Source of the DNA: an uncultured Roseburia sp.
GTDB taxonomy: Bacteria > Bacillota > Clostridia > Lachnospirales > Lachnospiraceae
Assembly: GCA_947642555.1 (NCBI GenBank)
Contig: CANRSX010000007.1
Span: 1-64,000 of the forward strand
Direction of reading: 5' to 3'
DNA length: 64,000 nt
This document shows, piece after piece, positions 29,703 to 31,195 of this stretch. Made by a program: the position numbers and the translations under genes. The notes beneath the pieces are model-generated. The model searched no databases and was not told the DNA's origin. It was given only the letters and a program-made list of their open reading frames with translations. The stretch's first letter is position 1, and each line of letters begins with the position of its first letter.

Positions 29703-29722
29703 AAGATCGTCCGCAAATTTCT

Positions 29723-29752
29723 TGACAGCGCAAAGTGTCATGTGGTAAGCTG
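29723..29752 (+). promoter_or_regulatory. Promoter for the erm-like gene leader
   Basis: TTGACA (29723-29728) and an 18-bp spacer lead to TAAGCT (29747-29752), with a TG a few bases before it. It would start a transcript near 29760 that carries the leader ORF and the terminator before the methyltransferase gene. Confidence 0.52.
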
Positions 29753-29799
29753 GGAGCAGAAATAATCAGATAAAGTGATGAAAGAAAGGTGGCTTTGGC

Positions 29800-29847
29800 G
29801 TGGGTATTATTATTCGTTGTGCACGCACCCGTATACAGGGGCAGTAA
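29800..29847 (+). CDS. Leader peptide of the erm-like gene (15 codons)
   Basis: GTG 29800 is preceded by AAAGGTGG (29785-29792) at 7-nt spacing and encodes MGIIIRCARTRIQGQ. Leader peptides of inducible erm genes often begin MGI- or carry an arginine-x-arginine motif at which macrolides or ketolides stall the ribosome; this one has RTR at codons 9-11. Its codons 2-10 form the 5' arm of a long hairpin (29803-29904). A second frame from ATG 29778 to 29900 (40 codons) overlaps it but has a weak ribosome site. Translation and drug response are inference. Confidence 0.55.
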   Translation: MGIIIRCARTRIQGQ

Positions 29848-30037
29848 GAGAGCAGGTTTACAGTCTCAGAGGATGGGATTTTTTTGCGTGCACAAAATAA
29901 TACCGTATGTCAGACAGGGAAGGCCAGGCAATCGCCATACAAAAGCCAGGCGATAGCGTGCTTCCCCTGTCCTCCTGATCATATTGTGGTATCGTTTTCG
30001 CAGGGAATTTCCGTCCGGAAGTACTCCCTGCTTTTTT
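29803..30037 (+). promoter_or_regulatory. Structured attenuator leader of the erm-like gene
   Basis: Stem 1 pairs GGTATTATT (29803-29811) with AATAATACC (29896-29904), and TTGTGCACGCA (29817-29827) with TGCGTGCACAA (29885-29895): 20 pairs with a 5-nt bulge. Stem 2 pairs GACAGGGAAG (29913-29922) with CTTCCCCTGTC (29961-29971), with ATCGCC/GGCGAT inside. Stem 3 is the terminator at 30000-30037. The CCCCTG arm of stem 2 could instead pair with CAGGG of the terminator, giving an antiterminator. This fills the 423-bp gap between the flanking genes. Confidence 0.6.
30000..30037 (+). terminator. Attenuator terminator upstream of the erm-like gene
   Basis: GCAGGGA (30000-30006) pairs with TCCCTGC (30025-30031), TTCCG with CGGAA inside, and six T residues follow. 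It stands 89 bp before the methyltransferase start and has no gene ending before it on that transcript except the leader ORF, so it is most easily read as an attenuator. Confidence 0.8.
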
Positions 30038-30125
30038 ATTGCCTTTTCGCTGGAACAATGTGCAGATGCCGGGGCAGATGCTTCTGACCATGGCATCATG
30101 TGTACAGAATAAGAGGAGGCACGCC

Positions 30126-30941
30126 ATGCAAAAAAGCAGGAGAGATCACAGACATCAGAATCATCGTAACCACGAAAAAAGACAATTGTCGAACTCACAG
30201 AATTTTATCACGGACCGCAGGCTGACGGAGCGGATCGTCCGTCTGGCCGGGATCGGTCCGGACGATACGGTCCTTGAGATCGGAACGGGAAAAGGGCATC
30301 TGACGGAGGCGCTCTGCCAGAGGGCGGGCAGCGTCTGTTCCGTGGAGATCGACAAAAAGCTGTATGAGAGCGCCGGAAAGCGGCTGGCGCAGTATCCGAA
30401 CTTAAAGCTGATTCACGGGGATTTTTTAAACTACCGCCTTCCGAAGGGGAAGTATAAGGTGCTTGCCAATATCCCGTTTTTTATCACCACACAGATCGTC
30501 GATAAGCTGACTGCAGCGCAGGATCTGCCCACGGATCTCTGGCTGGTCATGGAGAAGGGGGCGGCGAAGCGGTTTATGGGGCAGCCGAAGGAGACGGAAA
30601 AGTCCCTGCTGCTTAAGGTAAACTGGGAGATCACGATCGCATTTTATTTTCGCCGGGAGGATTTTCACCCGATGCCGGCCGTGGATTCTGTGCTGGTTCA
30701 TTTTGCCAGAAAAAAGACGCCGGATCTTGACAGGAGGGAAGTGCAGGAATTCAAAAGCTTTCTGGATCACTCGTTCCGGTACGGGGTCTGTGGCGGCAGG
30801 GGGCTTCTGACGAAGCGGCAGGTGCAGGTCGCGTTAAAGCGGGCCGGGCTGCCGCAGATAAAGACAGGCGGAGAAACGCTTTACATCCAGTGGCTGTGTT
30901 TATTTCGATGTTATCAGGAGCAGAATAGCCAGAAAAATTGA
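30126..30941 (+). CDS. Erm-family 23S rRNA adenine-N6-methyltransferase
   Basis: The 271-residue protein has the Erm/KsgA order: SQNFITDRRLTERIV, SAM motif I VLEIGTGKGHLTEAL (about residues 53-67), the acidic VEIDKKLYE, and the catalytic VLANIPFFITTQIVDKL, then EDFHPMPAVDSVLVHF. Erm rather than KsgA is favoured by length, the NIPF motif and the attenuator leader. It would dimethylate A2058 of 23S rRNA and confer macrolide, lincosamide and streptogramin B resistance; no activity is proven. A basic, His/Arg-rich 20-residue N-terminal extension precedes SQNF. ATG 30126 follows GAGGAGG (30113-30119). Confidence 0.8.
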   Translation: MQKSRRDHRHQNHRNHEKRQLSNSQNFITDRRLTERIVRLAGIGPDDTVLEIGTGKGHLTEALCQRAGSVCSVEIDKKLYESAGKRLAQYPNLKLIHGDFLNYRLPKGKYKVLANIPFFITTQIVDKLTAAQDLPTDLWLVMEKGAAKRFMGQPKETEKSLLLKVNWEITIAFYFRREDFHPMPAVDSVLVHFARKKTPDLDRREVQEFKSFLDHSFRYGVCGGRGLLTKRQVQVALKRAGLPQIKTGGETLYIQWLCLFRCYQEQNSQKN

Positions 30942-31003: not shown

Positions 31004-31195
31004 ATGGTAAATATTAGAGGGATGTCCAAAGAGATGATAGCAGAGCTTTCTTTTACGGAAGATGAAAAGCAGGCGCTTCTGAAAGCCAAAAAACAGCCGA
31101 TTGTTTTTGATGAAGAGTGTCCGGAAACAACGCCGGAACGCGCAGTCAGATTCAGGCGTGTAAATCCGCCACGGGACGATGTGAAAAGAGCATAA
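31004..31195 (+). CDS. Small conserved hypothetical protein (63 residues)
   Basis: ATG 31004 is preceded by AGGTGG (30991-30996). The protein starts MVNIRGMSKEMIAELSFTED, has EKQALLKAKKQPIVFDEECP and ends in a basic stretch RFRRVNPPRDDVKRA. I recall such short proteins from Lachnospiraceae genomes but no function. It lies 29 bp before the purine nucleoside phosphorylase gene and may be co-transcribed with it. A longer frame from 30938 is not supported by a ribosome site. Confidence 0.6.
   Translation: MVNIRGMSKEMIAELSFTEDEKQALLKAKKQPIVFDEECPETTPERAVRFRRVNPPRDDVKRA

Follow-up and report, generated by a model that had tools for sequence, protein, structure and literature searches.

An erm gene of an uncultured Roseburia sp. 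is preceded by a real and conserved RNA element that is probably a macrolide-inducible transcription attenuator, a variant of known attenuators that serves more than one kind of resistance gene. The element lies in a 64,000-nt stretch of DNA (the window) from a genome of ~5.0 Mb. Its parts, their conservation and its mutually exclusive predicted folds were found directly, and we consider it quite likely that the element acts as a ribosome-mediated transcription attenuator that makes erm inducible by macrolides. A first-pass annotation of the window had proposed an inducible attenuator with an arginine-motif leader peptide; its observation was partly confirmed and its interpretation partly supported, as described below.

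The leader region and its gene in the window

The features of the region are listed with their evidence, where type I denotes loci with the layout of the window.

29722..29751, + strand: probable promoter, TTGACA, 18-nt spacer, weak -10 TAAGCT (sequence; TTGACA-like box in relatives)
29785..29792, + strand: leader ribosome site AAAGGTGG (sequence; conserved in the type I alignment)
29800..29847, + strand: leader ORF MGIIIRCARTRIQGQ, GTG start, 15 codons, RTR at codons 9-11, ending RTRIQGQ (sequence, comparison)
29803..29827, + strand: stem 1, 5' arm, formed by leader codons (covariation)
29837..29856, + strand: segment A, the leader end, stop codon and beyond (pairs with the T2 3' arm, U-tract and tail)
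29862..29885, + strand: T1, a weak hairpin of -5.7 kcal/mol with a 7-T tract, a weak terminator or pause site (fold, consensus)
29871..29888, + strand: antiterminator arm, comprising the T1 3' arm, U-tract and GCG (pairs with 29999-30016)
29885..29904, + strand: stem 1, 3' arm, the anti-antiterminator (covariation)
29913..29971, + strand: linker hairpin, lineage-specific, the second stem of the first-pass annotation (fold; not conserved)
29999..30016, + strand: T2 5' arm region, partner of the antiterminator arm (covariation, pairing)
30000..30037, + strand: T2, an intrinsic terminator hairpin of about -18.7 kcal/mol with six T and a bulge (fold, hairpin covariation)
30027..30046, + strand: T2 3' arm, U-tract and tail, partner of segment A (pairing)
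30115..30119, + strand: erm ribosome site GGAGG (complementary to the T2 tail; adjoins a segment complementary to the leader start)
30126..30941, + strand: Erm-family 23S rRNA adenine methyltransferase gene, 271 aa (NF000499, Pfam RrnaAD, ErmC' structure)

The product of the last gene scored 218.7 bits against the curated family profile NF000499 (cut-off 212) and 134.5 against the KsgA model, below the cut-off of 171 for that model. A Pfam RrnaAD domain was found in the protein, and its best match among solved structures was ErmC'. The host has a separate RsmA-like locus (G000:C28:39381) with 32% identity, and three RsmA sequences of other genomes split from the Erm sequences in the tree. The identification of an Erm-like methyltransferase in the first-pass annotation therefore holds, and the sequence comparisons support the product as an Erm-family, predicted 23S rRNA (A2058) methyltransferase. 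A 63-codon ORF (31004-31195) with no Pfam or NCBIfam match separates erm from a purine nucleoside phosphorylase gene.

The promoter is the weakest part of the window element. The TTGACA box was found at 29722-29727, but the hexamer 18 nt downstream, TAAGCT, is a weak -10 box, and a best-match script picked a 16-nt spacer with GGTAAG instead. A consensus scan of the stretch returned 0 promoters and 0 terminators, probably because of the weak -10 box and the bulge in T2. Upstream of the leader, 35 of the 39 type I loci (exceptions L006, L058, L060 and L087) have a -35 box that departs from TTGACA at no more than one position, counted as the best match within a stretch per locus, and the -10 boxes of the type I relatives are mostly better than that of the window.

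The 15-codon ORF with its ribosome site and RTR motif is present as annotated. The combination of short ORF, ribosome site and R/K-x-R/K motif is both present and conserved, which marks the ORF as a candidate R-x-R arrest leader. In four relatives (L074, L076, L077 and L081) the leader stops right at RTR, and CAGGGGCAGTAA is kept or nearly kept there as non-coding RNA. An overlapping 40-codon frame from 29778 had been offered as a second leader; none of the 38 other type I loci keeps it, and L075 and L079 have different overlapping frames.

The long stem built on the ORF was recovered as stem 1, whose arms covary, and the intrinsic terminator placed 89 bp ahead of the gene corresponds to T2, which ends 88 nt before the erm ATG (30126). 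T1 with its 7-T tract and the conserved antiterminator pairings were absent from the first-pass annotation. The whole leader fold gave a z of -5.5, with none of 100 shuffles equally stable, and the fold of 29750-29920 gave a z of -4.2 against shuffles. The antiterminator arm can pair with 29999-30016 at 17 of 18 positions, and segment A with the T2 3' region in 20 consecutive pairs. The T2 tail GCCTTTT (30041-30047) is complementary to the erm ribosome site (30114-30120), a pairing that covaries among relatives (z -4.7), and the leader start carries GGCGTG, the complement of CACGCC ahead of the erm ATG. No Rfam 15 family matched this stretch at gathering score.

Conservation of the element in relatives

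Whole-genome Erm searches (E <= 1e-40) were performed on genomes of the family, the order, the class and one genus. With the window genome counted, erm loci were found in 4 of 397 family, 11 of 392 order and 8 of 391 class genomes, and in 28 of the 77 genomes of the one genus; the 35 other genomes of the window's own genus gave RsmA-level matches at best. We read 57 loci including the window. Without the window's own copies, the 56 loci comprised 38 of type I, L040 (a twin of L006 that was dropped throughout), 16 of type II, which is simpler and has a single terminator-like hairpin, and L094. Two pairs, L002/L068 and L004/L070, look like identical genomes in two collections. In a tree of 44 sequences, one branch (96/87) set off type I and another (91/68) type II.

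An R-x-R leader was located in all 39 type I loci including the window, by a pattern that itself required R-x-R and that did not fail at any locus. All 16 type II leaders contain R-I-R or R-L-R by reading, and L094 (34% identity) is without an R-x-R leader. A blind leader criterion applied to 450 nt detected 35/39 type I and 13/16 type II loci compared to 0/28 RsmA upstream regions and 17/1100 shuffles, although the RsmA upstreams offered this criterion only 7 candidate short ORFs versus 40 in type I. The comparison thus strongly supports the earlier proposal of an R-x-R leader on which a drug would stall the ribosome, with predicted transcription attenuation before an Erm gene. A pattern search placed a T2 hairpin with its U-tract in 39/39 type I loci (set by hand in L080). 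Hairpin energies in type I ranged from -10.0 to -19.7 kcal/mol for T2 and from -2.7 to -7.1 kcal/mol for T1, which is among the most conserved parts of the element, and the distance from the T1 U-tract to the T2 3' arm ranged from 58 to 193 nt. Most of the type II loci (the 16 being L005, L041-L048, L088-L093 and L095) carry a TACACCT-like segment before the leader start; by eye, it complements the erm site AGGTGTA and, at several loci, the 5' arm of the terminator as well. No Erm was found in viral contigs, and no copy of the window leader DNA was found in plasmids. The T1 U-tract motif was tried as a marker in viral contigs and rejected: none of its 9 matches has an R-x-R leader by reading, and 7 of the 9 share one sequence context.

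Conservation of the pairings was assessed by a swap test on 28 of the 39 type I loci, near-identical loci being left out, in which pairing partners were exchanged between species and the own and foreign fits were compared. The z values were -7.8 for stem 1, -4.9 for the T2 hairpin and -2.2 for T1 itself; the T1 arm and U-tract against the T2 5' arm gave -5.8, segment A against the T2 3' arm -4.8, the leader start against the erm start -4.3, and the leader against the stretch ahead of the erm ribosome site -3.4. Eight pairs without an expected match gave values of -1.6 to +1.6, except segment A with the T1 arm (-2.2). A map of 1093 window pairs over five landmarks in the same 28 loci contained 29 pairs below z -4 and 1 above +4, where the spread was 1.6 and relatedness can inflate such z values. 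The strongest map pairs were stem 1, the T2 hairpin, the T1 arm with the T2 5' arm, the leader start with the erm start (-5.4), and segment A with the T2 3' arm; the T2 tail with the erm ribosome site gave -4.7. When the four most divergent loci were left out, the values were -7.3 for stem 1, -5.0 for T2, -2.9 for the antiterminator and -2.2 for segment A. Much of the antiterminator swap signal therefore stems from divergent loci.

Alignments of 25 of the 39 type I sequences (near-identical loci and L003, L006 and L060 left out) agreed with this picture. In stem 1, 8 of 20 pairs changed on both sides, a count matched by 5 of 500 shuffles, and the covariation score was reached by none of 500. 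The antiterminator was paired in 97% of the cells of these close relatives, with one double change that 119 of 500 shuffles matched. Independent changes are seen in the divergent loci, where L006 pairs GGTAATAA with TTATTACC and L003 pairs GGCAATAA with TTATTGCC; L003 has a different T1 arm, matching its own T2 arm. Across these comparisons, three predicted pairings recur: leader codons with the arm past T1, the T1 3' arm and U-tract with the T2 5' arm, and the leader end and stop codon with the T2 3' arm and tail.

Conserved pairing in homologues, which the first-pass annotation had set as one of the tests of its model, was thus found, but the pairings differ from those it proposed. Its antiterminator joined a CCCCTG arm of the second stem to the CAGGG arm of the terminator. 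CCCCTG is present in 1 of 39 linkers, and the linker gave a swap z of 0.06 against T2 (26 loci). The second stem itself is present in the window as the hairpin at 29913-29971 and is not conserved. The variable T1-T2 distance, the rarity of CCCCTG and the absent fit between linker and T2 together indicate that it is lineage-specific.

A predicted switch and its alternatives

The recurrent pairings suggest how the element may work. Without drug, ribosomes would complete the leader and depart, and the leader RNA would pair with the arm past T1 to form stem 1. With segment A and the T1 arm thereby held inside the loop of stem 1, T2 would fold and transcription would end before erm. With drug, Thr10 would occupy the P site and Arg11 the A site of a stalled ribosome that covers the 5' (leader) arm of stem 1. 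The stalled ribosome would free the T1 arm and U-tract to pair with the T2 5' arm while segment A takes the T2 3' arm and tail; T2 would be blocked and erm transcribed. Drug binding, the stalling position, termination at T2 and induction are steps that we infer.

The folding part of this mechanism was modelled for the 39 type I loci with a footprint mask, in which pairing was forbidden under a ribosome that had the middle R-x-R residue in its P site and the RNA ended at T2. In the free RNA, stem 1 (except in L060) and T2 form and the antiterminator is nearly absent. The mean numbers of T2 and antiterminator pairs were 11.6 and 0.02 in free RNA compared to 6.1 and 8.2 under the mask. The mask lowered T2 by more than 0.5 pairs in 29/39 loci, raised the antiterminator by more than 0.5 pairs in 32/39, and at least halved T2 in 20/39 (counted from the individual loci), including the window, where T2 fell from 12.8 to 0.04 pairs and the antiterminator rose from 0 to 14.8. 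In 10/39 loci T2 dropped by 0.5 pairs or less. Control masks left the mean T2 at 11.1 when placed in the linker (35 loci with room) and at 11.3 when placed before the leader, versus 11.6 in free RNA; the mask before the leader also lowered T2 strongly in L072 and L075. In thermodynamic terms, folding thus predicts an antiterminator that is mutually exclusive with T2 and is freed by a ribosome on the leader.

In the window, all P-site positions from 7 codons before to 2 codons after the middle residue of RTR switched the fold, and a ribosome at the last two codons gave no switch. In this model the stall position is predicted to count coarsely, not at codon level. When the RNA was cut ahead of the T2 3' arm, more than 5 antiterminator pairs formed in only 9 of the 39 masked loci; the kinetic order is therefore uncertain. 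The hold of segment A on the T2 3' arm seems to be needed for the modelled switch and to be formable only with the polymerase at T2. Polymerase pausing, whether at T1 or within the linker, could matter for the switch, by analogy with the pause that NusG gives in tlrB of Bacillus subtilis (PMC6851288).

The strongest alternative, which we regard as possible though the lesser reading, is combined transcription and translation attenuation like that of tlrB, in which the erm ribosome site is covered by the leader or the T2 tail and becomes free only when a ribosome stalls. The pairs of leader start with erm start and of T2 tail with erm ribosome site are among the covarying ones (z -5.4 and -4.7), the GGCGTG/CACGCC complementarity in the window and the by-eye match of the type II TACACCT-like segment to AGGTGTA would fit, and tlrB has such a dual layout (PMC6851288). 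However, folding did not yield the opening of the ribosome site by a stalled ribosome that tlrB-type control implies: predicted openness under the footprint went up in 1 and down in 19 of the 39 type I loci, and went up in none of the 16 type II loci.

Rather unlikely is a reading in which T1 is the main decision point, where a stalled ribosome abuts T1 and blocks termination or releases a pause, with T2 as a backstop. T1 is highly conserved in type I, and most type II footprints end, by reading, at or within the base of the sole terminator-like hairpin, but T1 is weak compared to T2 in type I and in the window lies beyond the footprint. Translation attenuation alone, as in ermC, with T2 as a minor or silent hairpin, is very unlikely here even though translation is the usual level of control for inducible erm genes (PMC4335068): the T2 hairpin with its U-tract is present in 39/39 loci and is itself the partner of conserved alternative pairings, and where an ermC or ermB attenuator would act by hiding the ribosome site alone, a terminator is present and folding predicts no opening of that site. 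A constitutive gene behind a chance leader and an ordinary upstream terminator would suit the weak promoter match but is scarcely credible, since leader, pairings and placement are conserved across 39 type I loci and beyond.

Known attenuators and other genes served by the element

The reading of the element as a transcription attenuator places it among described systems, with which it was compared by their published descriptions. Stalling at R-x-R by ketolides and macrolides is established (PMC8298421). In mechanism the mef(E)/mel attenuator of Streptococcus and ermK come closest, mef(E)/mel being the nearest in logic, and ermK, tlrB and hflXr are near relatives in kind. As described in PMC4335068, mef(E)/mel has an R-x-R leader (MTASMRLR) and transcription-level control, and a repeat past its leader pairs with a repeat over the terminator and poly-U once a stalled ribosome opens the first stem, much as predicted here. 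The leaders differ, and in the present element a second conserved arm, the T1 3' arm with its U-tract, captures the T2 5' arm. The target of the window type is erm (and hflX), whereas a Mef(A)-like gene carries a related element with the leader MLICVR.

The ermK/ermD system of Bacillus (leader MTHSMRLR...) likewise combines an erm gene, an R-x-R leader, transcription attenuation and two terminator-like hairpins in its published outline (PMC4335068, PMC5418344). Its two terminators are described there as adjacent, while T1 and T2 lie 58-193 nt apart here; the window Erm is 36.7% identical to a plasmid ErmD. The tlrB (yxjB) gene resembles type II in having a leader that ends in R-x-R, then a terminator and a 23S rRNA methyltransferase, but the enzyme is RlmAII, not Erm, and the SD-sequestering layer reported for tlrB is unsupported by folding here (PMC6851288). 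The hflXr/rli80 element of Listeria is outlined as having an R-L-R leader, terminator, antiterminator, anti-antiterminator and an hflX target (PMC6310831), all with counterparts here, where one element family serves erm, an erm-hflX pair or hflX alone. In C. difficile, cplR is controlled at both levels (PMC10201436). Leader conservation was not universal in a survey of the regions upstream of erm genes (PMC11264731). Judged by titles and abstract openings, neither this element nor the erm-hflX pairing was found among the papers searched.

Copies of the element were searched for with a covariance model that was built from 25 training sequences and spans the leader, T1 and stem 1. In the 77 genomes of the one genus it gave 38 matches in 36 genomes and recovered 28/28 erm loci, of which 18 were training sequences. 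It detected neither the type II loci tested (L005, L041, L043, L046 and L090) nor the two divergent type I loci L003 and L006. Eight further matches, in eight genomes, lie before hflX (L142-L146 and L149-L151). The protein of L150 is HflX by TIGR03156 (433.5 versus a cut-off of 216.75) and matches those of the seven remaining loci at 82-85%. Seven of these 8 copies yielded T2 and the antiterminator pairings (the script missed L142). Unmasked T2 was weaker, at 3.1-5.9 pairs, in five of the 8, and the mask left at most 1.5 T2 pairs and at least 13 antiterminator pairs in 6, with little change in L146 and L150; the L146 leader has lost its R-x-R codons. Another match, L147 (G795:C19), is a decayed element that keeps the leader and lacks the part from T1 to erm, ahead of a leucyl-tRNA synthetase-like ORF named by eye. 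A match at G791:C139 (27 bits) is probably due to chance.

The hflX gene also lies directly behind erm, on the same strand and within about 200 nt, in 9 of the 28 erm genomes of that genus (loci L061, L063-L067, L069, L071 and L072 in genomes G763-G766, G768-G771 and G792). The remaining 19 were judged by contig coordinates, two of them by alignment too. In 68 of the 77 genomes there was one hflX match each (E <= 1e-100); this sole match was directly behind erm in nine genomes and directly behind the element in eight others.

With strict filters, the model matched 4 erm loci and 13 others (L129-L141) in the 397 family genomes. A Mef-like gene follows the element in 10 of the 13 (none at L135; the script took the wrong strand at L139 and L141), and the L129 protein resembles Mef(A) below the cut-off (542 versus 675). 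Ten of the 13 loci, from ten genera, gave an identical element sequence in the search output, and recent transfer may explain this. The leaders seen at Mef-like loci, MLICVR and MLIFVR, are without R-x-R; stem 1, segment A with T2 and the antiterminator recur in L129 and L140, the two Mef-like loci examined. We give about even chances to the wider proposal that Clostridia have a macrolide-sensing RNA cassette, made up of leader, T1, stem-1 arm and T2, that is portable and has come to stand before genes of three unrelated resistance functions, namely an rRNA methylase, the ribosome-splitting GTPase HflX (by itself or right behind erm) and a Mef-like pump, so that one design would coordinate target modification, ribosome rescue and efflux.

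If the attenuator reading is true, the erm genes of many Lachnospiraceae and other Clostridia would be silent until a macrolide or ketolide arrives, and gene presence and expressed resistance would therefore differ. A conserved RNA family of this kind would reveal drug-inducible resistance genes by their switch rather than by their protein, and the erm-hflX pairing would provide a testable link from rRNA methylation to ribosome splitting under macrolides.
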